The notes beneath the pieces were generated by a model that was not told the origin of the DNA, searched no databases, and worked only from the letters and a program-made list of their open reading frames with translations. A stretch of DNA of 45,475 bases, taken from positions 1 through 45,475 of the forward strand of contig JAFAZI010000002.1 in assembly GCA_019239875.1 (NCBI GenBank), in the 5' to 3' direction. Every line of letters starts with the position of its first letter. Within the stretch, counting starts at the first letter, position 1. Of this stretch, positions 26,954-45,475 are shown one piece after another. The DNA comes from Frankiaceae bacterium. Its GTDB lineage: Bacteria > Actinomycetota > Actinomycetes > JAFAQI01. Made by a program: the position numbers and the translations under genes.

Positions 26954-26980
26954 GCGCTCCGGAACGGCACCTATAGTCTG
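26954..26980 (-). repeat. cassette-boundary site, leftmost, reverse orientation
   Basis: Reverse complement reads CAGACTATAGGTGCCGTTCCGGAGCGC. Confidence 0.85.
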
Positions 26981-27006
26981 ACGGGTCGTTCGCCGAGGAT
27001 CACGGC

Positions 27007-27198
27007 TCAGGAGAAGTACACCGTCCGCACAATCCACACCAACCACACGAGGGCTGCGGACCACACGAATATGCGCCCACACGACCAAAGTACTTTGTAT
27101 GACCTCGATCCGGAACGACCTGTCGTCCAGTCATAGCCACGCGGCTTCGGCCCGTACAGGTATACCCACTCGGCGATGAATTCCAGAAACCACCCCAC
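27007..27198 (-). CDS. small membrane protein (left-array cassette)
   Basis: 63 aa, SCGRIFVWSAALVWLVWIVRTVYFS TM segment; stop just before the site at 26954-26980. Confidence 0.5.
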   Translation of the reverse strand: MGWFLEFIAEWVYLYGPKPRGYDWTTGRSGSRSYKVLWSCGRIFVWSAALVWLVWIVRTVYFS

Positions 27199-27260
27199 GA
27201 AGCAATTTCGGCAATCTCAGCTCGGATCTTGACGCGCGCTGCGAACCCTGAAACCTATGC

Positions 27261-27280
27261 GCCGCGAGCGGCACCTATCC
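27261..27280 (-). repeat. cassette-boundary site, reverse orientation
   Basis: Reverse complement GGATAGGTGCCGCTCGCGGC, matching GTAGGTGCCGCTCGCGGC at 37926. Confidence 0.8.
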
Positions 27281-27577
27281 GGCGGGTTCGCGTCGGGGCT
27301 TCACGTGCCGCCACGCACGATGGCGGGTCTTTTGGGAGAACTGCTTGTCCTGAGAGACGACCCGAAGTGCCTCGCCGATCGTGTCGCTCCAGGTGTTCGC
27401 GTCGATCCAGTCCAAGGCGTGCCCGACCCAGTAGTCCGACCATGGGCGGCAGACGACCTCTTCAACTAGGCGGACCGCCGTCGCGTCATCGAGACCGCTC
27501 TCGGACCTGGGCCGCTCTAGCAACGGCAGCAGCGCCCGAATGTCGTCCACCGATGCACGGTAACGCTGGGGCGACAC
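27275..27577 (-). CDS. hypothetical protein (left-array cassette)
   Basis: 100 aa ORF, stop overlaps the site at 27261-27280. Confidence 0.55.
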   Translation of the reverse strand: MSPQRYRASVDDIRALLPLLERPRSESGLDDATAVRLVEEVVCRPWSDYWVGHALDWIDANTWSDTIGEALRVVSQDKQFSQKTRHRAWRHVKPRREPAG

Positions 27578-27580
27578 TTG

Positions 27581-27602
27581 CGAGCGGCACCTATAGTCCG
27601 TT
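27581..27602 (-). repeat. cassette-boundary site, reverse orientation
   Basis: Reverse complement CGGACTATAGGTGCCGCTCG. Confidence 0.85.
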
Positions 27603-27730
27603 CTCTAGTGACTAACGACAAGCGCGACGATCATCCCTCGTCGTTCACGGGTCGTCACGGCTGGAAGTATCCACCGAGCTGCGCTAGCCCAGGCGACCGC
27701 TCTGCAACGCCGGGACTGTTGGAGAGTCGC

Positions 27731-28063
27731 TTACAAGCCGTCTACCTCGAGGAAGCGGCCCGCTCTGCGACGCACGATCTCGTGCGGGTCCTGAGCCAAC
27801 TCGGCCCTGATCGCCGGATCCAGCCGGCGTTGGGCGGCAACGGCCGCACGCACTCTCCAATCTGGATGGCGAGCAAGCCGCGCCACGATGTCACGGGGCG
27901 AACGCTTTGCGTGGGCCACCCAGTTGGCCATGTCGGGATGACGCTCCAGGACGGCGGCCCACGCCTCGTCTGGCATCTCCATCCATGCAGCCCGCTGGTG
28001 CTCCTCGGGCAAAACGCTACGACGGAGGCGCACCCACTCGTCCGCCATCTCATCCGCATTCAC
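27731..28063 (-). CDS. HEAT-repeat-like protein (left-array cassette)
   Basis: IVARLARHPDWRVRAAVAAQRRLDPAIRAELAQDPHEIVRRRAG; GTG start at 28063 or ATG at 28048. Confidence 0.6.
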   Translation of the reverse strand: MNADEMADEWVRLRRSVLPEEHQRAAWMEMPDEAWAAVLERHPDMANWVAHAKRSPRDIVARLARHPDWRVRAAVAAQRRLDPAIRAELAQDPHEIVRRRAGRFLEVDGL

Positions 28064-28109
28064 CGAACGCACGGTAGCGGGCTGGTGGGTCCGGGCGACT
28101 GCGCCAGAA

Positions 28110-28124
28110 CGCCGGTTAGGTCCG
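28110..28124 (+). repeat. integrase-flanking inverted repeat, left copy (attI-like candidate)
   Basis: CGCCGGTTAGGTCCG, exact reverse complement of 29092-29106. Confidence 0.85.
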
Positions 28125-28187
28125 CGGGGTGGACGATCTTCGGCGCGCCGGGAGGCAGGCTCTCGGCCTGACTGCGGAGGCCCCACG

Positions 28188-29090
28188 ATGACAACGACTG
28201 ACCTGTCCCTGACCACCAGCGACGCGAGCCGATGGGCCGTCGCGGGCTTCTTGGCCCGCTATCGGGAGCCGACCCGATCTGCGTACACGTTGGACCTGCG
28301 ATCGTTCCTGGCGTGGTGCCTGAGCAATAACCGGGACATGCTGCAGGTCAGCCGCGCGGAGCTCGAACTGTTCCTCCGTGACATGGAAGGCCGCGGCTAC
28401 GCGGTCGCGACGATCGCCCGACGATTTGGCACTGTCGCAACGTTCTATAAGTACGCGGTGATTGACGGCCTGATCTCCCACAACCCTGCGGATGCCGTCA
28501 CGCGACCTCGTGTCTCCTGGGAGGGTCAGCGGCGCACCGTCTTGCATCCGCTCGAGTTCGCCGCCATGCTGACGGCCGCGCGAACGGCCGGACCGGTCGA
28601 GCATGCGCTCGTCGCCCTCCTGGGCATGCTCGGACTGCGCGTGTCCGAAGCCTGCAACGCCGACGTCACCGACCTGCGTTACGAGTCCGGCTACGAGCTG
28701 CTGCACATCATCGGCAAAGGCGCGAAGCCCGCCGACATCCCGCTGCCGATCCCGGTGCTGCGTGCGGTCCGCCAGGTCATCGGCGAGCGCACCACAGGCC
28801 CGCTGTTGCGCACTCGCACGGGACGACGCCTCGACCGGCCCGCGGCGGCGCGGATCGTCGCCAGGCTCGCCAAGCACGCCGGGATCAACCACGCGATCAG
28901 TCCTCACGGGCTACGTCGCACCTTTTGCACCAGTGGCCTGATCGCCGGCGTCGCGATCCGCGACATGCAGCACGCGATGCGGCACAGCGACCCCCGCACC
29001 ACGCTCCGCTACGACATGGCCAAGACCAACCTCGACCGCCACGCCTCCCACGCGGTCGCCGCCTACCTCGCCGGCATGAGCACCGGTTGA
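28188..29090 (+). CDS. XerC/XerD-like tyrosine recombinase/integrase
   Basis: Catalytic pattern R (GMLGLRVSEA), K (IIGKGAK), HxxR (SPHGLRRTF), H (MRHSDPRTT), Y (LRYDMAK); N-terminal core-binding domain ARYREPTRSAYTLDLRSFLAWC. Confidence 0.95.
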   Translation: MTTTDLSLTTSDASRWAVAGFLARYREPTRSAYTLDLRSFLAWCLSNNRDMLQVSRAELELFLRDMEGRGYAVATIARRFGTVATFYKYAVIDGLISHNPADAVTRPRVSWEGQRRTVLHPLEFAAMLTAARTAGPVEHALVALLGMLGLRVSEACNADVTDLRYESGYELLHIIGKGAKPADIPLPIPVLRAVRQVIGERTTGPLLRTRTGRRLDRPAAARIVARLAKHAGINHAISPHGLRRTFCTSGLIAGVAIRDMQHAMRHSDPRTTLRYDMAKTNLDRHASHAVAAYLAGMSTG

Positions 29091-29091
29091 C

Positions 29092-29106
29092 CGGACCTAA
29101 CCGGCG
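29092..29106 (-). repeat. integrase-flanking inverted repeat, right copy (attI-like candidate)
   Basis: CGGACCTAACCGGCG, exact reverse complement of 28110-28124; begins 2 nt after integrase stop. Confidence 0.85.
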
Positions 29107-29142
29107 CTACACGACGCCTCGATTGCGGCCGATGATGGCTGC

Positions 29143-29373
29143 ATGAATGTCTGGCGGCGCCTCCTCATGGCGCTCCGCTGGTGGTTTGGATTGACCTACT
29201 TGCTGGGGGGCGCTGGCTGCATGGTGGCCGCGATCGTTTGGCTGGCAACTGGCAATTGGGCTGGCGTGTACCTGGCAGGAGGTGCAGTCTCGCTCCTCGC
29301 CTTAGCCTGGCTGATTCATCCGTGGGGTGTGCGCCGTCAGAATCTCGATCAAACTGCTCGCCCTGCTCGGTAG
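29143..29373 (+). CDS. small membrane protein (cassette)
   Basis: 76 aa, two hydrophobic segments WWFGLTYLLGGAGCMVAAIVWLATGNWAGVYLAGGAVSLLALAWLI. Confidence 0.6.
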   Translation: MNVWRRLLMALRWWFGLTYLLGGAGCMVAAIVWLATGNWAGVYLAGGAVSLLALAWLIHPWGVRRQNLDQTARPAR

Positions 29374-29379
29374 CGCCAG

Positions 29380-29400
29380 CAGTGATGCCGCTCGCGCACT
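29380..29400 (+). repeat. cassette-boundary site
   Basis: CAGTGATGCCGCTCGCGCAC, partially palindromic. Confidence 0.6.
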
Positions 29401-29421
29401 TCTCCGACCTAGGGTTGCGGC

Positions 29422-29922
29422 GTGTCCTCCGACATTGTCTGCGCGTCTTGTGGCCGCAGCGTCGATGCACACAATCAGCACTACCGATTCACCTTGCCTG
29501 ACCCGGTGCTGGACACCCCCGAGCGTGAGCACGCCGAAGGCACATGGATGAGCGACGCCGATGCAAACCGTTCCGTCCTGTTGCAGGTCCCGAACGTTGG
29601 GCCCTTTGTCCGTGCACTTCTTCCGGTGAAGCTGACCGGGGGCTTCGCGCTCACGTTTGGCGTGTGGCTGGCTGTACACCCGGAAGACCTTCAGCGAGCT
29701 GCGCGAGTGTGGCACCAGCCTGAGTACTCAGATCTCGTGTTGGACGGCTGGCTTGCGAATGCACTGCCCGTGTGGGGTCTTCTCGCGTGTCCCGTGCGGG
29801 CTGTCGTTCGCGTCATGGAACACACGCCCTATTGCTCAGAAAGTGCAAATGCCAAGATGAACTCCGTCCTGACAGACGAATTGCCTCACGACCTCATCTT
29901 GAGCGCGGTCACCACACGTTAA
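29422..29922 (+). CDS. DUF2199-like protein (cassette)
   Basis: CASCGRSVDAHNQHYRFTLPDPV; VKLTGGFALTFGVWLAVHPEDLQRAARVW; stop TAA lies in the following site. Confidence 0.65.
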   Translation: MSSDIVCASCGRSVDAHNQHYRFTLPDPVLDTPEREHAEGTWMSDADANRSVLLQVPNVGPFVRALLPVKLTGGFALTFGVWLAVHPEDLQRAARVWHQPEYSDLVLDGWLANALPVWGLLACPVRAVVRVMEHTPYCSESANAKMNSVLTDELPHDLILSAVTTR

Positions 29923-29970
29923 TGCCGTTCCTGAACGGTCCCAGCGTTAGGGCGCGGCTGCCTAACGCTT
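29919..29970 (+). repeat. cassette-boundary site with 9-bp inverted repeat
   Basis: TTAATGCCGTTCCTGAACGGTCCC, then AGCGTTAGG-N9-CCTAACGCT. Confidence 0.8.
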
Positions 29971-30016
29971 CAGCTCTGCGTTTGGCAGACGCCAGGGCGG
30001 TAGGGACCATTGGCGG

Positions 30017-30454
30017 ATGCATCGAATGTGGGCAGCTGGGGCGGCACTCTGTCTGGCGGTCGGAGGGTGCTCCCCGGCGTTTGACAAGACCTCAACGGTG
30101 CCGACACTCTCGTGCGCCTCGCATGCAACCGAAGCGACGTCGCAAGGGCCGACTACCCGACCAGGCAGGGACTTCGAGCCTCTTACTAAACAGCAGCACT
30201 CGGTTCCGTGGAAGTTAGAAACGATCCGCGAGGGCGGTTGCGTCCTCGTGGTCAGTTACAGCGACGAATGTGACGCCGCATCACGTGTACAGGTCCGCGA
30301 GGGGCCGACTGATGTACTGATTCGCGCGGTAATTCTTCGTAGCACCGGTGATTTGTGCGCATCGTCCCGTCTACGGTTCGTCCTATTGCCCGTACCGCTC
30401 GGTGATCGTCACCTCGTCCACGCCCGCGTCGCGCCGTTATTCAACAACCAATAG
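30017..30454 (+). CDS. lipoprotein (cassette)
   Basis: MHRMWAAGAALCLAVGGCSPAF signal peptide with lipobox. Confidence 0.65.
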   Translation: MHRMWAAGAALCLAVGGCSPAFDKTSTVPTLSCASHATEATSQGPTTRPGRDFEPLTKQQHSVPWKLETIREGGCVLVVSYSDECDAASRVQVREGPTDVLIRAVILRSTGDLCASSRLRFVLLPVPLGDRHLVHARVAPLFNNQ

Positions 30455-30474
30455 CGTCCGAAGCTGCGCGGATG

Positions 30475-30556
30475 AGAAGTGATGCCGTTCTGCGACGAGC
30501 ACGTGAGCCCGCGCGCCAGCGCGCAGACTATTGGTGCCGGTAGCGGACCACTGGCT
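30475..30556 (+). repeat. cassette-boundary site, long form
   Basis: AAGTGATGCCGTTCTGCGACGAGCACGTGAGCCCGCGCGCCAGCGCGCAGACTATTGGTGCCGGTAGCGGACC. Confidence 0.9.
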
Positions 30557-30589
30557 GGGCGGGATGGCCGGGGCTATCGAGGGTTGCCG

Positions 30590-31489
30590 CTAGCCGACTG
30601 ATATGCCGCCGTTTCCGTGCACGAATTGGTTCTTCCGATGGTGGCCGGCGATTGTTGCGCGACCGATCCATGGCGTGGTTCGGGCTTCGCCGCCCCACAG
30701 CCAGTAGATGTGTCCTGCGCCTACGGCCAGCTGGAAGGGTCCCGAGTGGTACCGCGTTGGTGTCGGCAGCCATGCGGGATCGGCCTTGGTGCCATCGACG
30801 TTGGCTCGTCCGATGGTGCCCCCGCCCTTGTTGTAGAGCAGTTCGCCCCAGTAGACGTGATCACGGTCAGCAGCCATGGCCTGGGGGCAGGACTTGCTGC
30901 GAAGGTGGATGAACCGGGGAGTTAGGTGCTTGCCGTTCGCGAATACGCGGCCGATCGCCGGGCGGCGGGCGCAGCGGCTGAAGTACACGTAGGTGCCGTC
31001 GGTTGCGAGGCCGTCGCCTACGCCGCCTCCGATCTCGGTCGGAGGCACGACGAAATGTCGTCGCGTCCGGTCGCCGTTGAGTCTGCTTCTGCCTATTGCC
31101 CGGTCGTCAAGCCAGAAGACGTGGTGGTTCAACACGGCGATGCCTTGCGGGCCTGGCACCCGCCGAACGAGTTTGCGAGGTCGGCCGCCGTCGACGGGAA
31201 CTCGCCATACCGTGCCTCGATATGCGGCGCGGTGGCCGAATGTCAGGTAGTAGATGAACCGTCCATGGACCTGTGACGCCACCATCTCGTTAGGCACCCT
31301 GGCGGTCACTCGCGACTTGCCGTCCTTGGCGGTCGCGACCGATCTCAGCTGATCCCCGCGCTGGAAGTAGAGCCGCTCGGACCGGCTCTGCGATGACGCA
31401 GCGGATGTAGTGGCCAACACGCAAAGACCGCAGAGAACGGCTATAACCCCAGAAATTGAGGACGTGCGACGAGTCGATAACACGCCCAC
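30590..31489 (-). CDS. secreted beta-propeller-like protein (cassette)
   Basis: Signal peptide SISGVIAVLCGLCVLATTSAASSQ; repeated WRVPVDGG / IGRSRLNG / IGRVFANG / IGRANVDG blades; GTG start at 31489. Confidence 0.65.
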   Translation of the reverse strand: MGVLSTRRTSSISGVIAVLCGLCVLATTSAASSQSRSERLYFQRGDQLRSVATAKDGKSRVTARVPNEMVASQVHGRFIYYLTFGHRAAYRGTVWRVPVDGGRPRKLVRRVPGPQGIAVLNHHVFWLDDRAIGRSRLNGDRTRRHFVVPPTEIGGGVGDGLATDGTYVYFSRCARRPAIGRVFANGKHLTPRFIHLRSKSCPQAMAADRDHVYWGELLYNKGGGTIGRANVDGTKADPAWLPTPTRYHSGPFQLAVGAGHIYWLWGGEARTTPWIGRATIAGHHRKNQFVHGNGGISVG

Positions 31490-31540
31490 ATTGTGCCCGG
31501 CAGTCAGCGACCGCTGAGTTGCTAATGACCCCGAGGCGTA

Positions 31541-31596
31541 TGCAGGTGCCCATAGCGTCCGACGCGGGGCGGTCGCGACGTGCCGCGCGGGCGCGG
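31541..31596 (+). repeat. cassette-boundary site (diverged)
   Basis: TGCAGGTGCCCATAGCGTCCGACGCGG, matches the right box GGTGAGCCGGTAGCGTCCGA at 41370. Confidence 0.65.
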
Positions 31597-31616
31597 CCCC
31601 CTGACGGTCCACGAGT

Positions 31617-32633
31617 GTGAACGATTTTCGAGTCGACGTGTGCCAACCTGGTCGCGTGGTTGGCGGTGTCAGAGTGCGGCGGTCGGGCCTGCTGCTCGTG
31701 GCGATGATTGCCCTTTTAGATGCCTGTGGCACAACGGCATATGGGCCAGTTGGTGCGACGAATAAGGGTCCTGCTCTTGTGTCGGTCGCCGAGGCGCCTT
31801 CCGGTGTCCCGAGGACTTTTCTTGGTGCAGCAGTCCGTCATCAGTTGCGGGTGGGTGAGTACTCGACGTCCAGCGGCCGGCTGGTGGAGCGGGTTCCCGA
31901 AAGCGCCGACGACACCATCGCGCTCGATGGCAGCGGCACGTCGGTTTACACATCGAGCTCCATCTCCAAGCAGCCGTGCTCGACGAAGGTCAACCTAGTG
32001 ACCGGGCATGTACACAAACTGTCGTTCTGCGCGACTGACCTTGCGGTCTCGGCTGACGACCGGATGCTCGCTTACACCGCGATTCGCGATCACCGTCGCA
32101 CGGTTCTTGTGATCCGCGATCGGCGCAACGGACGGCATCATTCTTCATTGGTTTATCGAAACTGCAGAGGCTGCAACAACGCAGTCCTCGGTGAACAACT
32201 AGCGTGGGCGCCAGACGACCGTCATCTGGCCGTCAATTTCGGCTCGACCGCCGCGCTTCAGGCGCTGCACGTGTATCCGGTCCACCACGCCAGACTCGGC
32301 CGACCGGCACTCGTCGCGAACTGTGACGGACGTCAGGAATCGTGCACCGATCCCGCCTACGATCGTCGCGGACGATTGCTTTACACCCAGATTGGCGGCG
32401 CCGAAACATCACCGTGCGAAGTGCGGTGGGCCCACCGTCACCGGCACGTTCTCCATACCTTCGGGCGCTACATCGAGACCGTCCTGGTCGACCATGCGGG
32501 CGACGCCTTCATGTGGAAGAGCGGCAATGTCCACGGTCGCCGACTGCGTACCCATGTGTGGACTCGCCACCGCGTTTACCGCGTGTTTGGTGGCGCACGC
32601 TTTCTCGCTGTTGATCCGCTCCTCTGGTACTAG
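31617..32633 (+). CDS. TolB-like beta-propeller lipoprotein (cassette)
   Basis: LLLVAMIALLDACGTT lipobox; LAVSADDRMLAYTAIRDHRRTVLVIRDRRNG; LAWAPDDRHLAVNFGS; true start probably internal. Confidence 0.65.
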   Translation: MNDFRVDVCQPGRVVGGVRVRRSGLLLVAMIALLDACGTTAYGPVGATNKGPALVSVAEAPSGVPRTFLGAAVRHQLRVGEYSTSSGRLVERVPESADDTIALDGSGTSVYTSSSISKQPCSTKVNLVTGHVHKLSFCATDLAVSADDRMLAYTAIRDHRRTVLVIRDRRNGRHHSSLVYRNCRGCNNAVLGEQLAWAPDDRHLAVNFGSTAALQALHVYPVHHARLGRPALVANCDGRQESCTDPAYDRRGRLLYTQIGGAETSPCEVRWAHRHRHVLHTFGRYIETVLVDHAGDAFMWKSGNVHGRRLRTHVWTRHRVYRVFGGARFLAVDPLLWY

Positions 32634-32733
32634 CGATGAAGGCCACACCAGGTGGCGTGGTGGTTCAAATTCTCAAGAACTACAGACCACTGACGCACCG
32701 GAGGTGGCAAATCCTGCCCGACGCCGGACGGAC

Positions 32734-32752
32734 GCTAAGTGCCTGATACAAC
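32734..32752 (+). repeat. cassette-boundary site (weak)
   Basis: GCTAAGTGCCTGATACAACC. Confidence 0.45.
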
Positions 32753-32759
32753 CGACGGC

Positions 32760-33116
32760 TCAGCAGCGGTGACCGTTCAGGAAATAGCCGCCCAGCGCGC
32801 CATCGTAATAACGCTTGGGGGGAGCTAAGCCCTGCTGTGTTGTTCCTGAACATCCTGCGTTGCCGCCACGGTTCAGCCCGTCGGGGAATGGGGGCTTGCA
32901 GCAGTAGTAGCCCTCGAAGGCAGCGCCGGTGCCGGTCGGGACGGCATCGCCCGTGTGCCAAACGACGGTGCCGCTCGGCGAGTCCGCCGTGATCCGTTGC
33001 ATCAGGTTCGTCGACGATGAGGGACGTGAGTCCGTTGCTGGTGCCTGCGACGAGCCGCCGCAGGCCGCAATCGGGAAGGCGAATGAGGCCAGCAGGACCG
33101 TGGATAGTGCCCTCAT
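32760..33116 (-). CDS. lipoprotein (cassette)
   Basis: MRALSTVLLASFAFPIAACGGSSQ lipobox. Confidence 0.65.
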   Translation of the reverse strand: MRALSTVLLASFAFPIAACGGSSQAPATDSRPSSSTNLMQRITADSPSGTVVWHTGDAVPTGTGAAFEGYYCCKPPFPDGLNRGGNAGCSGTTQQGLAPPKRYYDGALGGYFLNGHRC

Positions 33117-33139
33117 TGCCTCAGACTGCCACGCCAGAC

Positions 33140-33176
33140 GCGAATGCCGTTCCCGAGCGCCCTATTCGGCGCTATG
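33140..33176 (+). repeat. cassette-boundary site
   Basis: GCGAATGCCGTTCCCGAGCGCCCTATTCGGCGCTATGC. Confidence 0.8.
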
Positions 33177-33201
33177 CATCGCTTGTCGGACCGTGGATTC
33201 G

Positions 33202-33678: not shown

Positions 33679-33737
33679 GTCGGGATTCTCGGCCTTCATT
33701 GTTGGGAAAGCCAACTGGCTCCGCATAAATCGTGACC

Positions 33738-33772
33738 GATATGCCGTTCTCGAACAGTCCCGGCGCTACAGT
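33738..33772 (+). repeat. cassette-boundary site
   Basis: GATATGCCGTTCTCGAACAGTCCCGGCGCTACA. Confidence 0.8.
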
Positions 33773-34826: not shown

Positions 34827-34850
34827 CAAGCGCAAATCGAAACGGCCGAA

Positions 34851-34915
34851 TCCCTGCCGTTCTGCGACGGGCACCTAGCCCGCGCGCCAGCGCGCAAACT
34901 ATAGATGCCGTTTTC
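34851..34915 (+). repeat. cassette-boundary site, long form
   Basis: CTGCCGTTCTGCGACGGGCACCTAGCCCGCGCGCCAGCGCGCAAACTATAGATGCCG. Confidence 0.9.
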
Positions 34916-35410: not shown

Positions 35411-35416
35411 GACCTG

Positions 35417-35448
35417 AAGGATAGGTGCCGATAGCGGTGAGGGCACCC
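35417..35448 (+). repeat. cassette-boundary site
   Basis: AAGGATAGGTGCCGATAGCGGTGAGGGCACCCG; GGTGCC...GGGCACC inverted. Confidence 0.8.
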
Positions 35449-36052: not shown

Positions 36053-36077
36053 GTCCCCCTCAGTGTCGGGGTGGGGA

Positions 36078-36150
36078 CGCGAAGTGGCGATCCTTCGGCG
36101 GAACAAGGTTCCGCCGAGGGCGGCAGACTATAGGTGAGCCGATAGCGGCG
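36078..36150 (+). repeat. cassette-boundary site, long form with strong hairpin
   Basis: CGAAGTGGCGATCCTTCGGCGGAACAAGGTTCCGCCGAGGGCGGCAGACTATAGGTGAGCCGATAGCGG. Confidence 0.9.
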
Positions 36151-36175: not shown

Positions 36176-36643
36176 GTGGCTGCGACGGACGACGTATTCC
36201 TGACCCACCAGCAGCCGGTGTGGCGTTCCCGCGCCGACTTCATCGTCATGGCGCCCCTTGCCGAGCATCACACCTACGAGCAGATTTGGGCTCGACAGGA
36301 AGCCGACGATCTGTTCGAGATCTGCTGCATCCCCTTCTTCGCGCACAACCTGTCGCTAGGTGATCTTGTACGAACCGAGATGCAGGGTGAACGCTCCTAC
36401 TTGATCAGCGACGTCGTGCGGCCCTCGGGCCGATCGACCTTCCGCGTCTGGCTCGGGAAGAGCCCAGACGATCGACTGGACGTGGAGGCGGAGTTCATAG
36501 CCATGGGCGCACTGACTGAGTGGTCGTCCGAGCACCTGCTTGCGCTGGACGTGCCCGACGAACCGCAGGCCCAGGTCCTCGCGACCAGACTGGCAGCGGG
36601 CGAGCAGAGCGGTCGCTGGTTGTACGAGACCGGCCGACTGTAA
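36176..36643 (+). CDS. DUF4265-like protein (cassette)
   Basis: VWRSRADFIVMAPLAEHHTYEQIWARQEADDLFEICCIPFFAHNLSLGDLV; VVRPSGRSTFRVWLG; TAA stop inside following site. Confidence 0.75.
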   Translation: MAATDDVFLTHQQPVWRSRADFIVMAPLAEHHTYEQIWARQEADDLFEICCIPFFAHNLSLGDLVRTEMQGERSYLISDVVRPSGRSTFRVWLGKSPDDRLDVEAEFIAMGALTEWSSEHLLALDVPDEPQAQVLATRLAAGEQSGRWLYETGRL

Positions 36644-36662
36644 GTGCCGCTCCAATCAAGCG
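36636..36662 (+). repeat. cassette-boundary site
   Basis: GACTGTAAGTGCCGCTCCAATCAAGC. Confidence 0.8.
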
Positions 36663-37321
36663 GGTGGTGCCGTCTTTGACCCGACCCACTCCCTCAGGAG
36701 ATCGCGCTGTTTGGGCCAGGAGTCGACTTTCGATGGTCGCTCGAGCAGCTGCGACATCACCTGATTGAGTTGGGGCGAAGGGCCCTCGTCGGCGAGGAGC
36801 ACGACCATCGCTATCTCGAAATGGATCGACCAATCCGAGGTCCGCTTGATCTCACCGAGATCGCCCGCGTCCACCGTCGCGAGGATCGCTTCCCGATTTA
36901 ACAGTCTGACAACCTCCCGCAATTGCCCTTGTGCTTCCAGTCGTATCACCACGTCTCGAGCAGCAGCTTCTGCCGACCGCTCGTCGATGACGGTCCACGC
37001 CCCGCCGGTGTCGAGGCCAGGCGAGGGCTGGAGCCGCGCCCGCCACAGCCCGTCCTGCTCACTGACCGACTTGTCGGCGGGTCGAGACAGTCGAGCTGCG
37101 TTCCATTCCCGCCACGGTCGGGGAGCCACGGCTAGGTTGACGTAAAAACGCGCGCTTTGGGCCGTGTTCCACTGCGAGAGTTGGACGTTGATCACCGCCA
37201 CGTCATCTCGCTCGTTGATGAGCCGCCACGTTGGCCACGTCCCCTTGAACCCGGTGGCTCTGATGACCGGCACGAGGTGCTTCGTAACCGCCTTCTTGGT
37301 CGAATCCTTCGCGCCCGCCAT
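36656..37321 (-). CDS. DUF4304-like protein (cassette)
   Basis: VPVIRATGFKGTWPTWRLINERDDVAVINVQLSQWNTAQSARFYVNLAVAPRPW; ATG at 37321. Confidence 0.7.
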   Translation of the reverse strand: MAGAKDSTKKAVTKHLVPVIRATGFKGTWPTWRLINERDDVAVINVQLSQWNTAQSARFYVNLAVAPRPWREWNAARLSRPADKSVSEQDGLWRARLQPSPGLDTGGAWTVIDERSAEAAARDVVIRLEAQGQLREVVRLLNREAILATVDAGDLGEIKRTSDWSIHFEIAMVVLLADEGPSPQLNQVMSQLLERPSKVDSWPKQRDLLREWVGSKTAPPA

Positions 37322-37366
37322 GAGCCAGGAGGTTATAGCTCGCTGAAGGAGACTCCTATCAGGCGG

Positions 37367-37398
37367 AGCGTCCGACGAATAGTGCCGTTCTTCTACGC
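37367..37398 (+). repeat. cassette-boundary site
   Basis: GCGTCCGACGAATAGTGCCGTTCTTC. Confidence 0.75.
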
Positions 37399-37422
37399 AG
37401 CCGACCCCGTTATCGTGCGAGC

Positions 37423-37929
37423 GTGACCGGCGAACCATGTCCGCGATGCGGCATGAAACCTGTCGAGTTCAGCGATAGCCGCGGGCACGCATTGACGATT
37501 TTCGACGTCATATTCGGGCTCGGGGCTCTGCTCCTTCTGCTCGCCCTCGGGACAAATGTTCTGGTCGCAGGAGTAGTTGCCGTGCTCGTCGGCATCGCAT
37601 TTCGGGCGGTCACTAACCACTCCTACTACCGCTGGACACGCACGGCGGACGGACGGGCCTTCACGTGGAGCAAGGGGCGCGTCATCCGAACTATCCCGAA
37701 CGACGGTGTCGTGGAGGTAAGCGAGGGTCGCTTGACCGCGATGGGTCCGTGCGTGTTCGTACGTGTCGATGCGCAGTCAGCCCATCTGCTGACGAGCCGT
37801 GCGCAGCGCCGTACCCAACAGTTCGTCATCTTGAAACGGCGCCTCAATGATCTGCCTAGTCTCCGGAAGCACCTCGGCCACCTCGGCCAGCAGAAATACG
37901 AATCAAGTCAGCCACTTAGCGGACTGTAG
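37423..37929 (+). CDS. membrane protein with N-terminal Zn-ribbon and PH-like C-terminus (cassette)
   Basis: MTGEPCPRCGMKP; FDVIFGLGALLLLLALGTNVLVAGVVAVLVG; TAG stop inside following site. Confidence 0.6.
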   Translation: MTGEPCPRCGMKPVEFSDSRGHALTIFDVIFGLGALLLLLALGTNVLVAGVVAVLVGIAFRAVTNHSYYRWTRTADGRAFTWSKGRVIRTIPNDGVVEVSEGRLTAMGPCVFVRVDAQSAHLLTSRAQRRTQQFVILKRRLNDLPSLRKHLGHLGQQKYESSQPLSGL

Positions 37930-37960
37930 GTGCCGCTCGCGGCGCCGGGCCAAGCCTAGG
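37921..37960 (+). repeat. cassette-boundary site
   Basis: GGACTGTAGGTGCCGCTCGCGGCGCCGGGCCAAGCC. Confidence 0.85.
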
Positions 37961-38627: not shown

Positions 38628-38685
38628 GCACCCGCGTTGCGTCAACCAGCATGACCGACCGTGTCGCTGGCCATACAGCGCCACC

Positions 38686-38722
38686 ACGTAAGTTGCCGTT
38701 CTCAAGCGGCCTCTCGCACCAA
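38686..38722 (+). repeat. cassette-boundary site
   Basis: ACGTAAGTTGCCGTTCTCAAGCGGCCTCTCGCACC. Confidence 0.75.
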
Positions 38723-38888
38723 CGTCTCGGCGTCAGACAACGAGGTGCTGCTCGGGGCTCGCCATTTGAATGACATCGAGCGGTTCCGCCCAACTAGGTC
38801 CTGTATTTGCCCGACCGCCTGACATGGCCTATAGGGAGCGCCATGATCTTCTTGAATCTGGTGGGACGAGCACGCAGGAGCATGGTCC

Positions 38889-39398
38889 ATGACTACGTTC
38901 GACACTTTCGACAGGACCGGTGCGGTCGAGTTCCCGTTCGGAACCCGTGTCGTGTTTCACGCCGTCGAGCAGGCGGTCTCACGAATACCAACCATGCAGG
39001 TAGCTGAAGCGAACCGAATGGCCAACAGGATCACAGCGAAGGTCGGCATGAGCGCGATGTCCTGGGGTGAGAAGGTCGCGATCTCAATCACAGAGGCGGC
39101 TCCTGGTCGTAGTCGCGTGAGCGTCGCGTCTGCCGCGAAGAGCGTGCTTGGCTCGGCCACCACTCACGGCAAGAACCGTCGAAACGTTGACACCATCATT
39201 TCCGCGACCGCGAGCTTGCTCGAGCAGTATGGCGCCGAGTGGAGCGTTGTCACGGGCGAGCCCACGCCACAAACGCCTGGGCAGTCCGCGCCACAGAGCG
39301 GGGCCGAGGAGATTGAGAAGCTCGCGGGCCTACATCAGGCCGGCATTCTCACTGACGAAGAGTTCTCTGCTAAGAAGCGTCAGATTCTCGGTATCTGA
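38889..39398 (+). CDS. SHOCT-domain protein (cassette)
   Basis: C-terminal EEIEKLAGLHQAGILTDEEFSAKKRQILGI. Confidence 0.7.
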   Translation: MTTFDTFDRTGAVEFPFGTRVVFHAVEQAVSRIPTMQVAEANRMANRITAKVGMSAMSWGEKVAISITEAAPGRSRVSVASAAKSVLGSATTHGKNRRNVDTIISATASLLEQYGAEWSVVTGEPTPQTPGQSAPQSGAEEIEKLAGLHQAGILTDEEFSAKKRQILGI

Positions 39399-39440: not shown

Positions 39441-39484
39441 CACGAAGTGCCGATCCTGAGCGGGTCATCCGGCGCTTCGTGCGC
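39441..39484 (+). repeat. cassette-boundary site
   Basis: CACGAAGTGCCGATCCTGAGCGGGTCATCCGGCGCTTCGTGCG; CACGAAG...CTTCGTG outer inverted repeat. Confidence 0.85.
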
Positions 39485-39506
39485 ATCTCTACGAGAGCAT
39501 TACGCG

Positions 39507-40019
39507 GTGATTGAGCCCGCGGACGGTGCCGGAAGCGTGACCGACTCTGTGATGCGCGCGGCGGCGCAGGTCGGTACGCGCACCGAGGACGCCGTGCTCG
39601 GGGGTCGTCCATGTCCAACATTTCGACGTTCGGATTTTCGCGTCGCCTGGGTCGCCACCCGGATGCACACGTTCATCTACGTCTTGGATCTGACCGCCGG
39701 GAGCCACGTACCGCCGCCCGACCTAGCTCAGGAAGCACGCGTGTGGGCTCGTGACCACAAGGGTGGTCTACCCGGTGGGATGCAGACGGGCTCGACCGCA
39801 ATGCCCGTCTTTATCGTGCCCGAGGTTAACAGCGCCCGCGCCTGGGCCGAGTCGCGCCAGCCTGCGATGTTCGCGGTCGGGCTGTTTCCGATCGCCGTAC
39901 GAGCCGACGGTCGGCAGGTGGCGTACCGCCGCAAGAGTCAGTTCGTGGGCTTCGTCTACGAGCGATTTCGGCGATCTCTCGCATCGGCGCTTGTCGGCGG
40001 ACTGGCTCCCGACCTTTAA
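39507..40019 (+). CDS. hypothetical protein (cassette)
   Basis: GTG at 39507 likely; TAA stop inside following site. Confidence 0.55.
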   Translation: MIEPADGAGSVTDSVMRAAAQVGTRTEDAVLGGRPCPTFRRSDFRVAWVATRMHTFIYVLDLTAGSHVPPPDLAQEARVWARDHKGGLPGGMQTGSTAMPVFIVPEVNSARAWAESRQPAMFAVGLFPIAVRADGRQVAYRRKSQFVGFVYERFRRSLASALVGGLAPDL

Positions 40020-40036
40020 GTGCCGTTAGTCAAGAC
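40012..40036 (+). repeat. cassette-boundary site
   Basis: ACCTTTAAGTGCCGTTAGTCAAGAC. Confidence 0.75.
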
Positions 40037-40263
40037 AAGAGCTGGCGAACACGAGTCGCTCGGAAGTCGAAACTGTCCTGCTTCGCTGCTTCGTAGTCGA
40101 ACTCGACCTCCTCACCGTCAACCAGCTCGCGGTGTCCGGCCCCTTCGATGACGGAGACATGCACCCACGCATCCCGACCCGCAGGTAGCTCACTAGATGA
40201 GATCGCTCCCCATCCCTTATCTGGGCGGTAGAACTTCACGACTCCCGTGGCCATGTTCGACAT
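40030..40263 (-). CDS. cold-shock-domain protein (cassette)
   Basis: MATGVVKFYRPDKGWGAISSSELPAGRDAWVHVSVIEG. Confidence 0.85.
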   Translation of the reverse strand: MSNMATGVVKFYRPDKGWGAISSSELPAGRDAWVHVSVIEGAGHRELVDGEEVEFDYEAAKQDSFDFRATRVRQLLS

Positions 40264-40307
40264 GATCGCTTACTCGGACAGGCTCAGCGACCCATTTCAC
40301 GCGCGAG

Positions 40308-40338
40308 CCGAAGTGCCGCTCATGGCGCGCTCACGAGT
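40308..40338 (+). repeat. cassette-boundary site
   Basis: CCGAAGTGCCGCTCATGGCGCGCTCACGAG. Confidence 0.7.
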
Positions 40339-40426
40339 TACCCCCGCCCCTGACCGATCACGATCGCCCTTCCAACCCTGCTGTGGGAATGAAGACCACC
40401 GCTGACATTGAGGCAGGCTCTATCCC

Positions 40427-40780
40427 ATGACGTCGTCGGTGCCTCCAGATGTCCCAGCACTCATCGAGCGCTACGAGGCGCTTGCCGTCGCCTGGGATAC
40501 CGAAGCCGTCGCCAAGAGGGCTAATAAGATTTTCGACCAGCTGCACGCGATTGCTCTGCACCTTCGACCGGATGCTGAAGGGCGTAAGCGACTTGAGGCA
40601 TTGCTCGCCCACCCGAACCGAGGAGTCAGGTTGAAGGCCGCGGGTGATTGCCTAGCTTGGGCATCGCCAGCGGCTGTCTCGGCGTTGGAGGAGCTTGTTA
40701 CGCCTCGAGGAAGACACTCTTTGAGCGCTGAGACGACGCTGCAGGAGTTCCGCGCCGGGCGCATGAGCGTCGACTGGTGA
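40427..40780 (+). CDS. DUF2019/HEAT-like protein (cassette)
   Basis: ALIERYEALAVAWDTEAVAKRANKIFDQLHAIALHLRP; HPNRGVRLKAAGDCLAWASPAAVSALEEL. Confidence 0.65.
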   Translation: MTSSVPPDVPALIERYEALAVAWDTEAVAKRANKIFDQLHAIALHLRPDAEGRKRLEALLAHPNRGVRLKAAGDCLAWASPAAVSALEELVTPRGRHSLSAETTLQEFRAGRMSVDW

Positions 40781-40896
40781 TGTCCAGTCGTTGTGGAGCC
40801 AGCGCGCGCCGTCAGTCCAGCCGCGTGGACGTCCGAACTGGGTCGCTTTCCAGAGCGCGCGACTGAGTAGTCCGATGCGCCCATTCCATGTACCGA

Positions 40897-40918
40897 ACAG
40901 GTGCCGTTCGCAGTCGCT
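40897..40918 (+). repeat. cassette-boundary site (weak)
   Basis: ACAGGTGCCGTTCGCAGTCGC. Confidence 0.5.
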
Positions 40919-40963
40919 GAATACCTCGGTGACATCGCAAGGGACGTCAGCCACCATCAACGG

Positions 40964-41308
40964 GTGACCGAGACCGTAACCCTCTGGCGCCCGACGGGAC
41001 CGGCCGAGATCGCTTTAGTCGAGGAGAGTGGCTGGCGGAGGTGGCCGCCGCGGCTTCCAGACCAGCCCATCTTCTATCCGGTGCTTAACGAGGAGTACGC
41101 GATAAAGATCGCGCGCGACTGGAATGTGAAGGCGAGCGGCTCAGGATTCGTTACCCGATTCGAGGTCGAAAAGACATACCTCGATCAGTACGACGTACAT
41201 CAGGTCGGTGGTAAGACGATCCTGGAGTATTGGATTCCCGCCGAGGAGCTCGACACGTTCAATGACCACGTCGTCGGCACGATCGACGTGATTGCGACCT
41301 TCGGATAA
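40964..41308 (+). CDS. protein resembling those annotated ADP-ribosylation/crystallin J1 (cassette)
   Basis: TLWRPTGPAEIALVEESGWRRWPPRLPDQPIFYPVLNEEYAIKIARDWNVKASGSGFVTRFEV; GTG at 40964. Confidence 0.65.
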   Translation: MTETVTLWRPTGPAEIALVEESGWRRWPPRLPDQPIFYPVLNEEYAIKIARDWNVKASGSGFVTRFEVEKTYLDQYDVHQVGGKTILEYWIPAEELDTFNDHVVGTIDVIATFG

Positions 41309-41313
41309 GTCGT

Positions 41314-41395
41314 CGATAGGTGCCGTTCTGCAACGGGCACCTAGCCCGCGCGCCAGCGCGCAGACTATAGGTGAGCCGGTAGCGTCCGATGTAGC
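41314..41395 (+). repeat. cassette-boundary site, long form
   Basis: GATAGGTGCCGTTCTGCAACGGGCACCTAGCCCGCGCGCCAGCGCGCAGACTATAGGTGAGCCGGTAGCGTCCGATG. Confidence 0.92.
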
Positions 41396-41424
41396 CTAGC
41401 TCGGCTGACGATACATTAGGTGGC

Positions 41425-41925
41425 GTGGTTCAGGCGCTGCTCCGGTCACTCAAACCGCGGGCATCCCTTTTGGTAGCAGGGATCATTGCGAGCTCAACGG
41501 CCTGCGGCAACACAGACGGACCCGCACTCATCTCCGCTCCAGATCCGAGCGGCGGAGGGCGAATCTCTCTCGGAACGGCGACCTTTGGCTCCGACCCCGA
41601 ATCCGTGTGCGTCGCCTTGGGCCAAGCGGTCGTTCCCGATGTGCGGAGGACACCGATCGCAAGCCGCACCACTGCGAACCAACAGGTTCATTCGACGAAG
41701 GTAGTCACCGGTCACGTCCCGGTTCAATGGGCCGAGCTACCACCGCGACAGGCACTGGTCCGATGCAGCTGGACTAGCGACAACGCGGAATACCTCACCG
41801 GGTTGTATGTGGTTCGGCGGGGCGTCGGCCTGCGGAACACGGGCACGTACATCGGAACGGCAGTGATCGACCAGACCGGTCGTTGGGCCGCCGACGAGAC
41901 GGTCTTCTTTGATGCCTACGACTGA
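41425..41925 (+). CDS. lipoprotein (cassette)
   Basis: LLVAGIIASSTACGNTDGP lipobox. Confidence 0.6.
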   Translation: MVQALLRSLKPRASLLVAGIIASSTACGNTDGPALISAPDPSGGGRISLGTATFGSDPESVCVALGQAVVPDVRRTPIASRTTANQQVHSTKVVTGHVPVQWAELPPRQALVRCSWTSDNAEYLTGLYVVRRGVGLRNTGTYIGTAVIDQTGRWAADETVFFDAYD

Positions 41926-41937
41926 GCATGAGCCGCC

Positions 41938-41982
41938 CGGGAAGTGTCGCTCCTGAACAGTCCCGGCGTTCGCGAACGGTCT
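41938..41982 (+). repeat. cassette-boundary site
   Basis: CGGGAAGTGTCGCTCCTGAACAGTCCCGGCGTTCGCGAACGG. Confidence 0.75.
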
Positions 41983-42134
41983 GACTCACGCCGAGCCTAG
42001 CGAAATTTGCCCGAACCTTGCGCGGCTCGGCGATGTTCCTGAAACCGTCGACTGGTCTGGCTTGAATCGTGCTGACCGTCACACCGACGTACCACTCCTC
42101 AACTCGGACGTCGCTGGGGTGCTCACTACGGCAC

Positions 42135-42596
42135 TCACGGTCGGATTGGAAGTTCTTTGGCGAGTCGGTCGACCTCGAGCATCACGACAGATGAAGGAAT
42201 GCCTGAGTGGATCCATGCTCCGACGATTGCGAGAACGCTCCGTCGCAATTGGGCGTCCGAGGGTCGTACTAGCGCGCGTAGGCATTCCCACGCTGCTACG
42301 AGCGGGTTGCGTTCCAAGATGGGTCTCGGAGAGTCGAAATCGACCGCATTGAGACGCTCGTCGATTGTCTCCCAGACCGCGGCAGCACCATCAGGGGAGC
42401 CATCGATGTGAGTAAGAACGTCTGCCACGCTTCGAAGCAGGCCCGCGTCGGCATCGTTGCCAGCCTCGTGAAGCACTCCGGCTAGGCGGGCAAGCTGGTT
42501 CGATAGGACCGGGGGGAGCGCGTCGTTGTCTAGTTTGATCTGCCCCAGGGCCGCCGACGCACGGCGTACGAGGTCCTCGCCACTGAGCGTTGTCAT
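42135..42596 (-). CDS. hypothetical protein (cassette)
   Basis: 153 aa ORF bounded by sites. Confidence 0.55.
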   Translation of the reverse strand: MTTLSGEDLVRRASAALGQIKLDNDALPPVLSNQLARLAGVLHEAGNDADAGLLRSVADVLTHIDGSPDGAAAVWETIDERLNAVDFDSPRPILERNPLVAAWECLRALVRPSDAQLRRSVLAIVGAWIHSGIPSSVVMLEVDRLAKELPIRP

Positions 42597-42671
42597 AGAG
42601 CCCCTTCTGAGCGATCTGGTCGCTAAATGGACCGCTGTTATCGCGGCACCGCCCGCCGTCGACGCGGCACA

Positions 42672-42712
42672 CTACAAGTGCCGATAGCGGGCGGGCGATT
42701 CGGCACTTTCCC
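42672..42712 (+). repeat. cassette-boundary site with perfect 9-bp inverted repeat
   Basis: AAGTGCCGA (42676-42684) and TCGGCACTT (42700-42708). Confidence 0.85.
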
Positions 42713-42739
42713 GACCCCGGGCTGCGAGATCATCGTCCG

Positions 42740-43018
42740 GTGAGCGTCGCGAGTTGGCTGAGGAATCTCGACGACCGTGTCTTTCCGCGCCGCGCCGCCT
42801 TGCACGAGGAGCCAATTCCTATAGGGATGCTGTTGCGCGCGCTCGGGCACCGGCCCACTGTTTGGTGGACTACTGGCGGCACGCTCGCGACCTGCTGTAT
42901 AGCTGTCATATGGCCGTCCCTCGCGGCCCTCGGATTCCTCTGGGCGGCCGTCCTCCGCGCTCTTGCCGAAGAACAAGTTCGCCGGGATCACCAGAGCGCC
43001 AAAGCCAAATCACCATGA
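42740..43018 (+). CDS. small membrane protein (cassette)
   Basis: TVWWTTGGTLATCCIAVIWPSLAALGFLWAAVLRAL. Confidence 0.55.
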   Translation: MSVASWLRNLDDRVFPRRAALHEEPIPIGMLLRALGHRPTVWWTTGGTLATCCIAVIWPSLAALGFLWAAVLRALAEEQVRRDHQSAKAKSP

Positions 43019-43046
43019 GCATGCCGCGACCGCTCGCTCCGGGTGA
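43018..43046 (+). repeat. cassette-boundary site (weak)
   Basis: AGCATGCCGCGACCGCTCGCTCCGGG. Confidence 0.4.
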
Positions 43047-43047
43047 G

Positions 43048-43585
43048 CTACCCGCTGCGCACGACGGTGACCGTCATCGGATATGGCACGACCTGGCTGC
43101 CGTGGTCACCCTGGCTGTCTTCGTACGCGAGTCGCACTGCCGGCATGTGCACCTGTGGCGAGGCGGTATGCCATGTCAATGTGGCAAGGATAAACCAGGC
43201 GGATTGTCTGCCGGGAGTCATCTTGACGGCGGTGACGGGCCTGGGACTGAAGTGAGACGGATCCTTGCGCGGGAGATCGCCGATCGCCTTCAGGATCCCC
43301 CCTCCGGTGTCGCTGTAGCGGTAGGCAACGATCGACTTGACTGATGCACCGGGGGGTTTCGACACAAACGACACTCCCGTGAGGTGAACGCGAACGCGGA
43401 GCGGCACAGGTGTCGGTAAGCCTAGGTTGACGGTCTGCCCGACCCTGACCTGTGTGGTGAGTCGCTGGCCCGGGTCGGTGGTGGGAAACACCTTTCCCAG
43501 GCCGTCCGAGGATCTGTTGGCACATCCGGCGGTGAGCGCCAGTCCCAGCCATGCGGCGCACCACCTTCGTTTCACCCGCCTCACG
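43048..43585 (-). CDS. lipoprotein (cassette); start near 43585 (approximate)
   Basis: RRVKRRWCAAWLGLALTAGCANRSSDG. Confidence 0.55.
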
Positions 43586-43685
43586 ATACGGCCGTGCTGG
43601 GCGAACGAGCCGAGGGCTTTGACCGGCAGCGTTGCGCTGGCCAGGGCATGTTGAAGACGCGAATAGCCGCTCTTTCCCGCAGGCA

Positions 43686-43745
43686 CTTTGTTCCGCCGAA
43701 GCGCAGACTGTAGGTGCCGATCTCCGACTGCGGTGACCGCTAGGC
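43686..43745 (+). repeat. cassette-boundary site
   Basis: TTTGTTCCGCCGAAGCGCAGACTGTAGGTGCCGATCTCCG. Confidence 0.85.
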
Positions 43746-43795
43746 AGTTGGCGAAATAGACATCTCAGGACGAGTCGCAGAGCAATACTGAGCGG

Positions 43796-44179
43796 GTGGG
43801 TTCGGAGACTTTGCCGATCGTCATCACGGTTGTCGCGGGTGGTCTTTCGGTCGTGCTTCTTGTCGCGCATTTCACCGGTCATACGAAATGGGCGCGCGGT
43901 TTGGACGAGCGCATGTGGGCATCGAAGCTCGGCTGGCTCGTTCCGGGCGGACTTGCGTATCGGGTCGCTCGCCGGTGGGGTCTGCCGGCAGGTCCGCTTC
44001 CGTTCTTTCTTGGCGGTATGACGGGCATGTGGGCCTACGAGATCGGGAGCAGGCGACATCGCGTCATTCACGGGCTCGATGAGTTTGAACCCGTCGCCGG
44101 TGGCGCCGCGCCGCTTACTTCGCGGGTACCTGAACCGGAGGAAACGATCGTTGCCGTGGTGCCGAGGCATCGCGCATAG
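43796..44179 (+). CDS. membrane protein (cassette)
   Basis: LPIVITVVAGGLSVVLLVAHFTGH; TAG stop inside following site. Confidence 0.55.
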   Translation: MGSETLPIVITVVAGGLSVVLLVAHFTGHTKWARGLDERMWASKLGWLVPGGLAYRVARRWGLPAGPLPFFLGGMTGMWAYEIGSRRHRVIHGLDEFEPVAGGAAPLTSRVPEPEETIVAVVPRHRA

Positions 44180-44210
44180 CTGCCGTTATTGCGCTCCGGT
44201 GCTGGCTAGG
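44176..44210 (+). repeat. cassette-boundary site
   Basis: ATAGCTGCCGTTATTGCGCTCCGGTGCTGGCTAGG. Confidence 0.65.
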
Positions 44211-44228
44211 TGCGTAGATACTGACCTG

Positions 44229-44987
44229 ATGGCGGCAGCGTCGCGAGGCGGCGGGTTCATCAGGGCCGTCCGTATTGATGTGCCAGCGACCGCGGCCAGC
44301 CAATGGCCGTTCACGATTCCGTCGATCGCCTCCTTTGGCCGTCGCAGCTTCGACCCGGCCGTGACGTATCTGGTCGGCGAGAACGGCAGCGGCAAGTCGA
44401 CTCTTGTTGAGGCGTTGGCAGTCGCGGTTGGCCTCAACGCCGAGGGCGGTACGCGCAACATGGGATTCTCGACCGCTGACTCTCACACCGCTTTGACTAA
44501 GCATCTAGTGGTGGAGCGCCGAGGACGGCCGCGCACGGACTTTTTCCTGCGGGCTGAAAGCTTCTTCAACGTGGCGTCACATATCGACCGGCTCGACGAG
44601 GATCCGCTTGGTGGACCAAAGATTCGCGAGGCCTACGGCGGGCAGTCGTTGCACACGCGCTCGCATGGCGAGTCATTCATCGCAACGTTGACTCACCGGC
44701 TCGGTCCAGGCGGGCTGTACTTCCTCGACGAACCGGAATCAGCCCTGTCGTTCCACGGGTGCCTCACGCTTCTGCGCGTGATCAACGACCTCACCCGGGA
44801 GGGATCACAATTCGTAATCGCTACCCACAGCCCGATCGTTCTGGCCAGTCCTGGTGCGCTTATCTACTCGCTCGACGAGGACGGAATCAAGACCACGCAC
44901 TACGACGAAGCCCCACCCGTGATCAACAACCGTGAGTTCTTACGCTCCCCTGAGCGATTCCTCCGGCATCTTTTCGCGGACGATTGA
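44229..44987 (+). CDS. AAA/ABC-type single-gene ATPase (COG3910-like) (cassette)
   Basis: Walker A VGENGSGKSTLVEAL; SHGESFIATL; Walker B GGLYFLDEPESALS; FVIATHSPIVLASPGA. Confidence 0.88.
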   Translation: MAAASRGGGFIRAVRIDVPATAASQWPFTIPSIASFGRRSFDPAVTYLVGENGSGKSTLVEALAVAVGLNAEGGTRNMGFSTADSHTALTKHLVVERRGRPRTDFFLRAESFFNVASHIDRLDEDPLGGPKIREAYGGQSLHTRSHGESFIATLTHRLGPGGLYFLDEPESALSFHGCLTLLRVINDLTREGSQFVIATHSPIVLASPGALIYSLDEDGIKTTHYDEAPPVINNREFLRSPERFLRHLFADD

Positions 44988-45012
44988 TAGGTGACGCTCG
45001 CGATCGGTGGAA
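44985..45012 (+). repeat. cassette-boundary site (diverged)
   Basis: TGATAGGTGACGCTCGCGATCGG. Confidence 0.55.
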
Positions 45013-45050
45013 CCCGGCATTTCGACCGTCAGCCCGAGAAGATGGGTCGT

Positions 45051-45475
45051 ATGAACGACCGGGACGTGCCGTATGCGCCGAGGCGGCCCTGGCGGGCGGC
45101 CGTACTGATCGCCGGAGGCGCTGGAGTGGTCCTGCTGGTCGGCGTGTTGAACGCGTTGGGCGTGAGTGGTCCGTACCGATCGAACGCGACGATTTCCTCG
45201 ACCGAGGAAGCGCGAATCGCCAGCTATTTCCTCGCTCATGACAGCTTCCGCGACCACCACGCGCGAGCGGGCTGCCCGGTGGATGTCCTCGGAGCGCACC
45301 GGGACGGACGGACAACGACGGCGTACACAGTCATCCACTGCTGGACAGCCGGGCCGCATTGCGGGTCACTATCGGACGCAACGACCGGCGTGGTCGCGCG
45401 GCTGGTCGATGGCGAGGTGATCTCCGAGCAGTTTGATGACGGGATCGAGTACTCGGCCGAGAGGGCGGAGCTGTC
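45051..45475 (+). CDS. membrane-anchored hypothetical protein, truncated at window end (cassette)
   Basis: MNDRDVPYAPRRPWRAAVLIAGGAGVVLLVGVLNALGVSGPYRS...; open to last base, so absent from ORF track. Confidence 0.5.
   Translation, partial: MNDRDVPYAPRRPWRAAVLIAGGAGVVLLVGVLNALGVSGPYRSNATISSTEEARIASYFLAHDSFRDHHARAGCPVDVLGAHRDGRTTTAYTVIHCWTAGPHCGSLSDATTGVVARLVDGEVISEQFDDGIEYSAERAEL

Follow-up and report, generated by a model that had tools for sequence, protein, structure and literature searches.

Integrons are the gene-capturing device behind much of antibiotic resistance, and their canonical core site reads G|TT. Integron function depends on a specific insertion within the integrase protein IntI (PMC8138268), and a large RefSeq survey, in which Actinobacteria yielded no complete integron, called their lack in such clades intriguing (PMC9024848). 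The window studied here is the whole of one contig (C25; 45,475 bp) from the draft genome of a Frankiaceae bacterium (G000; 4.15 Mb in 206 contigs), and from 26.9 kb to its end it is occupied by short genes separated by related, recombination-site-like repeats, with a tyrosine recombinase gene at 28188..29090 among them. As judged from the anatomy of the locus and its comparison with relatives, we consider it probable (about 0.77) that this is an integron-like cassette platform which does not use IntI and has two outward-facing insertion sites.

The likeness to integrons is considerable: short, lower-GC units of mostly one or two genes lie between related sites, some of them imperfectly palindromic; a resident tyrosine recombinase stands next to the first unit; and the core is G|YT-like. 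Unlike an integron, the window has a recombinase that is not IntI by score, two inverted attI-like sites with arrays on both sides instead of one attI, and a left site arm reading TARGTGCCG instead of RYYYAAC; the system is not filed as an integron, because the IntI criterion and the two-sided layout with inverted attI-like repeats both speak against it. With clusters of attC sites lacking integron-integrases (CALIN; PMC9024848) it shares clusters of related sites and small genes with no IntI nearby, and an integrase-free segment on contig C200 of the same genome is alike, whereas a recombinase other than IntI accompanies the window array at the point where site polarity divides; since no IntI is present, a search for IntI only would file the window array as a CALIN. 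Among annotated records, the nearest relatives of the recombinase include integrases of Arthrobacter and Gordonia phages (up to about 48% identical), which reside in phage genomes, whereas the window module has inverted attI-like repeats and rows of cassettes. Simple tyrosine recombinases (Xer and integron-like subgroups; PMC8138268) resemble the 300-aa window protein in its SAM-like N-terminal and catalytic domains, although by NCBIfam cut-offs it is no Xer equivalog.

The 12-bp core of the sites, TARGTGCCGYTC, is confined in the window to 26.9-45.5 kb, where it lies between mostly unrelated genes; GC content is 61-63% over most of the array versus 66-70% over most of the host part. The sequence TARGTGCCGTTC, with up to two mismatches, is matched 28 times in the window against 4.0 expected, a number reached by none of 100 shuffles, and all except 6 of the 28 matches fall within 26.9-45.5 kb. 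A 20-bp matrix trained on the right-hand sites of the window only, the left-hand sites being outside the training set, detects at 16.5 bits three minus-strand sites to the left of the recombinase (26.97-27.59 kb) and 17 plus-strand sites to its right (29.1 kb to the end), with none in 1-26.3 kb and none on the wrong strand on either side. The three leftmost sites (26.97, 27.27 and 27.59 kb) thus point left and all others in the window point right, the recombinase occupying the divide. The threshold was set after the scores had been seen, the polarity outcome being identical at 13, 15 and 16.5 bits; site calling was partly by eye, a choice that the polarity test mostly avoids by relying on the matrix. 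Sites are oriented according to their side of the integrase, whichever way the gene beside them runs, and some minus-strand genes are present between plus-strand sites.

On the right-hand side the site-to-site intervals are mostly 280-1100 bp and contain one or two short open frames, which may run either way, and several plus-strand genes have their stop codon at the site. The left arm TARGTGCCG is conserved. Downstream of the core by 12-75 nt, CGGC[AG][CT]T is found at 13 of 51 sites versus 4.8% in the control. Some sites have a CCGGC[AG]NT-type motif as their right arm (CCGGCGCT, CCGGCGTT, CCGGCAGT, CCGGCATT), which is present at 10 of 51 versus 5.4% in the control. In arrangement, with short genes from different families separated by a series of related sequences, the sites are of the attC type. 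The original prediction, made from the DNA letters alone, of a recurrent core in the gaps from 26.95 kb onwards and of its going unnoticed in 1-26.3 kb agrees with these counts, and its placing of the right end outside the window is correct, because the window is a complete contig and the array is cut off by the assembly. Its estimate of about 30 sites is to be lowered to about 25 good ones; short, mostly single and unrelated genes are indeed the rule, with some intervals holding two genes or minus-strand genes; and it had missed that the resident recombinase is the divide between two opposed arrays, has perfect inverted repeats on its flanks that end in a motif of the sites, and is not IntI.

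The proposed cassette integrase (28188..29090, plus strand; 300 aa) matches Pfam Phage_integrase with 77.9 bits, besides a SAM-like N-terminal domain, and keeps all the catalytic residues (R151, K177, H240, R243, H266 and Y275, invariant in six relatives). It is not an IntI, scoring 61 bits with TIGR02249 (cut-off 265) and 41.8 bits with PRK15417 (cut-off 435), for which the control, IntI1 of plasmid R100, scores 508.6 and 799.5, respectively. Despite being XerD/XerC-like, it stays under every equivalog cut-off, with 115.8 and 111 bits versus 329.6 and 335.2 for XerC and XerD. In a tree it groups with the integrases of the genomes G092, G017 and G023 and of a Frankiales metagenome-assembled genome (MAG) (98/95 support); this group is nested in a larger clade with actinobacterial phage integrases, the integrase of G287 lies further out, and IntI1 is far away, although its branch is long. 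All named relatives are actinobacterial, and 111 phage records (Arthrobacter, Gordonia) carry homologues.

The integrase gene is flanked by a perfect 15-bp inverted repeat. The left copy (28110..28124, minus strand) reads outward CGGACCTAACCGGCG|TTCTGG and the right copy (29092..29106, plus strand) CGGACCTAACCGGCG|CTACAC, the bar marking the proposed crossover; their outer edges read CCGGCG|YT, which is also the right-arm motif in a subset of the array sites. The integrases of G287 and G758 likewise lie inside perfect inverted repeats, of 17 and 23 bp, respectively, whereas in 300 simulations of the flanks the longest inverted repeat was 12, 11 and 13 bp (window, G287, G758). These repeats differ in sequence among the three genomes, and each reads outward CCGGC[AG]|NT, those of G287 and G758 ending in CCGGCA|NT; we propose the paired repeats as candidate attI insertion sites in all three. 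A first placement of the cassette edge inside TARGTGCCG was dropped, the inverted repeats and the right-arm motif indicating CCGGCR|YT. In G287 the repeat encloses, together with the integrase, a DUF7711 gene (L109 8422-9111), which shares the module bounded by the repeats and lies within the part conserved in the genome G759.

A scheme compatible with this anatomy would have a phage/Xer-type tyrosine integrase encoded between two inverted copies of a primary insertion site (attI, CGGACCTAACCGGCG|YT). Free circular cassettes, each carrying a site of the form TARGTGCCGYTC...CCGGCR|YT, would be inserted by the integrase through recombination at CCGGCR|YT of either attI, and because either copy could serve, the rows of cassettes would grow outward on both sides with their sites pointing away from the integrase. 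Recombination from site to site could also remove or copy units; integrase-free stretches of array are present elsewhere in the genome, on C200 and, as far as the contig goes, on C51. That the integrase acts on these sites, the position of the crossover and the two-sided growth are what we infer; two-sided insertion is supported by the resemblance of the attI edges to the right arms of the sites, by polarity and by recurrence. The further view, that actinobacteria evolved this platform from a phage-type integrase independently of IntI, and that its paired inverted attI sites stockpile cassettes in both directions around one integrase and may also let it flip and change the array it faces, is one towards which we lean only slightly.

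Recurrence was followed in a comparison set with one genome per species, the array-bearing genomes being drafts. Within 6 kb of the integrase module, the right-trained matrix at 13 bits finds 16 sites pointing outward and none inward on the left side of the window and in G287, G758 and G759. G287, which belongs to another family than the genome of the window and whose integrase is 54% identical, shows the core GTGCCGNTC at eight sites on the right and at one clear site on the left, besides a left-hand site with one mismatch. G287, G758 and G759 are three species of one genus; at the nucleotide level the integrase module is common to G287 and G759 (78%) and G758 shares only the integrase gene with them (80%), BLAST among the three retrieving nothing in common beyond these integrase stretches. 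Turnover of cassettes around an integrase that is kept would give such a pattern, which is consistent with it without being a proof. The Frankiales MAG, whose integrase is 63% identical, displays its own diverged motif, GAGCCGGCCTTC, picked by eye, at six right-hand sites and one left-hand site, all outward; two further matches at the level of two mismatches include one inside the integrase gene.

The site family extends beyond the window. With a 39-nt model (R1) made from 12 sites, nine matches reach E <= 1e-3 genome-wide, all on C25, C51 and C200; the weaker matches include more sites on the three contigs as well as one where C4 begins. C51 bears a second array (L075/L099, about 29-33.7 kb) of a single polarity that reaches the end of the contig, C200 an internal row of about six sites with no integrase, next to a recA-like gene, and C19 at least one site. 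Two window cassettes have copies on C51 that are about 90% identical, with homology stopping at the sites, which supports duplication of whole units: the left cassette at 26980..27285 (minus strand) and that at 29944..30479 (plus strand; gene 30017-30454), each with a 90% identical copy. In four family members homology to the window ends at 26303, and since the homology of the host region stops there, nothing homologous to the array is present at their locus; in G001, G003 and G008 the amidohydrolase at the array border (26.3 kb) is followed by a variable stretch and then by a block which in our genome is on C154. Close to the end of C154 a sequence resembling the sites was spotted only by eye, and the matrix did not flag it.

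Several observations weigh against a two-sided cassette platform. No direct sign of movement was seen in a set with one genome per species, no strain pairs and no circles, and in both duplicated cassettes the copies have different 3' sites, which is not what a simple model in which each cassette brings its 3' site along would predict. Only some of the sites have a right arm that can be recognised, and complementarity between left and right arms over all sites is not significant (p = 0.11), so that single-strand folding is not claimed; a convincing hairpin is found at a few sites (39446, 41319, 42677), and the partially complementary arm of the original prediction is evident in a subset only. 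The closer relatives G017 and G023 (about 71% identity) have no array with this core, the integrases of G092 and G044 are frameshifted or truncated and accompanied by sites of another type, and the integrase clade includes phage integrases that may carry out ordinary phage integration. The central expectation of that prediction, a cassette-capture-like system in an actinobacterium, is nevertheless supported: instead of being scattered at random over the genome with no link to the integrase, the sites cluster at it, point outward and recur with homologous integrases. Cassette capture is thus what the anatomy and the comparison suggest.

A recombinase gene placed between perfect inverted sites is also the usual anatomy of DNA inversion switches, and the repeats could accordingly allow the integrase to flip its own module, the opposed arrays deriving from a single one by inversions; that the repeats are identical within a genome and different between genomes would suit such a switch. 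Yet a motif of the array sites is present in them and faces outward in the same way, so that they fit insertion sites equally, and as a full account inversion appears unlikely. The two readings are compatible, as two inverted copies of attI would also permit inversion, which stays a live alternative or addition to insertion. Still less probable is that a conventional IntI left a CALIN-like remnant, having been lost or being missing from the draft, while the resident recombinase is an unrelated passenger. The integrase-free arrays on C200 and, as far as its contig goes, on C51, the resemblance of CCGGCG|YT to the canonical integron core and the division of the draft into 206 contigs are in its favour, but a genome-wide profile search found no IntI above cut-off in this genome, the best IntI-like match (on C157) proving to be a XerD-like host gene beside a parA-like gene; moreover, arrays with outward polarity recur beside integrase homologues in G287, G758, G759 and L026, the inverted repeats of the integrase end in a site motif, and IntegronFinder 2.0 detected no complete integrons in Actinobacteria (PMC9024848). 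Finally, the hairpins formed by some sites, and the position of several over or after a stop codon, could be taken to mean an intergenic repeat family, terminator-like or of the repetitive extragenic palindrome type, with no role in recombination; we give this very little credence, as site direction follows the side of the integrase and not the neighbouring gene, minus-strand genes lie between plus-strand sites, and the remainder of the window has no such sites and the remainder of the genome few.

If the cassette platform is real, the strategy of building cassette arrays would have evolved more than once and IntI-based searches would miss such platforms; keeping cassettes on two sides of one integrase would be a new geometry. 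Searches of a collection of open-licence papers for actinobacterial, integron-like or two-sided systems found no description of this one. The arrays are also a source of unknown accessory genes, many of their small proteins having no family assignment in profile searches, and the families that are assigned (DUF2199, DUF4265, DUF4304, SHOCT, DUF2019, LRV repeats, AAA ATPase) are mutually unrelated. The first left gene (27734..28063, minus strand; LRV repeat protein) and the first right gene (29143..29373, plus strand; 76 aa) are both transcribed outward. Further on the plus strand are a DUF2199 gene (29422..29922) whose stop codon overlaps the following site, a DUF4265 gene (36176..36643) with the stop likewise overlapping a site, a gene with a SHOCT domain (38889..39398) and an AAA_21-type ATPase resembling defence ATPases (44229..44987; weak similarity to several, namely mad3, AriA and PtuA), while a DUF4304 gene (36656..37438, start possibly 37321) runs on the minus strand against the direction of the sites.

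The left-array sites, all on the minus strand and all found by the right-trained matrix, are 27558..27596 (CTATAGGTGCCGCTC...CCCCAGCGTTACC; 34.1 bits with R1, which was built with this site included), 27254..27283 (GGATAGGTGCCGCTCGCGGCGCATAGG; also a core match) and 26937..26979 (AGACTATAGGTGCCGTTCCGGAGCGCCCTATCCGGACG; also matched by the core and R1). The right-hand sites, all on the plus strand, begin with 29376..29395 (GTGATGCCGCTC), 29913..29952 (GTTAATGCCGTTCCTGAACGGTCCCAGCGTTAGGG), 33138..33177, 33735..33771 (with the CCGGCGCT arm), 35416..35440 (TAGGTGCCGATAGCG), 36635..36672, 37373..37392, 37921..37950 and 38684..38738; there follow 39441..39480, with a near-complete hairpin (GAAGTGCCGATC...CATCCGGCGCTTC) interrupted by one extrahelical base, 40011..40030, overlapping the stop codon of the gene 39447-40019, 40304..40323, 40892..40937, 41938..41974 (with the CCGGCGTT arm), 42672..42711 (hairpin AAGTGCCGAT...ATTCGGCACTT), 43705..43741, 44174..44207 and the final site of the window, 44982..45025. 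Interspersed on the same strand are long-type sites, one of which ends in CAGACTATAGGTGAGCCGATAGCG (36075..36147); three others (30473..30545, 34845..34915 and 41311..41384) form with two on C51 a repeat family of about 60 bp, whose members are 89-94% alike amid unrelated genes and may represent either units that lack a gene or a type of site that has spread recently.

An Rfam search gave no matches, de novo word counting was swamped by GC-rich words, and exact CAGACTATAGGTGCCG in viral contigs (3 matches) did not exceed the chance expectation for a collection of that size. A junction between C25 and C51 found no support, homologues of the P450 flanking C51 and of the amidohydrolase flanking C25 being on different contigs in relatives. 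The integrases of G092 (L104 4463-5338) and G044 (L105 4781-5554) are both cut short by a change of frame close to the C-terminus, that of G044 being also devoid of the part holding the catalytic H and Y; the sites near both read GRTMGTGCCAGMTC, and the upstream one points toward the integrase, unlike the others. The recA-like gene on C200 (L101 10669-13251) encodes 860 aa, and its translation appears to hold an intein-like insert.

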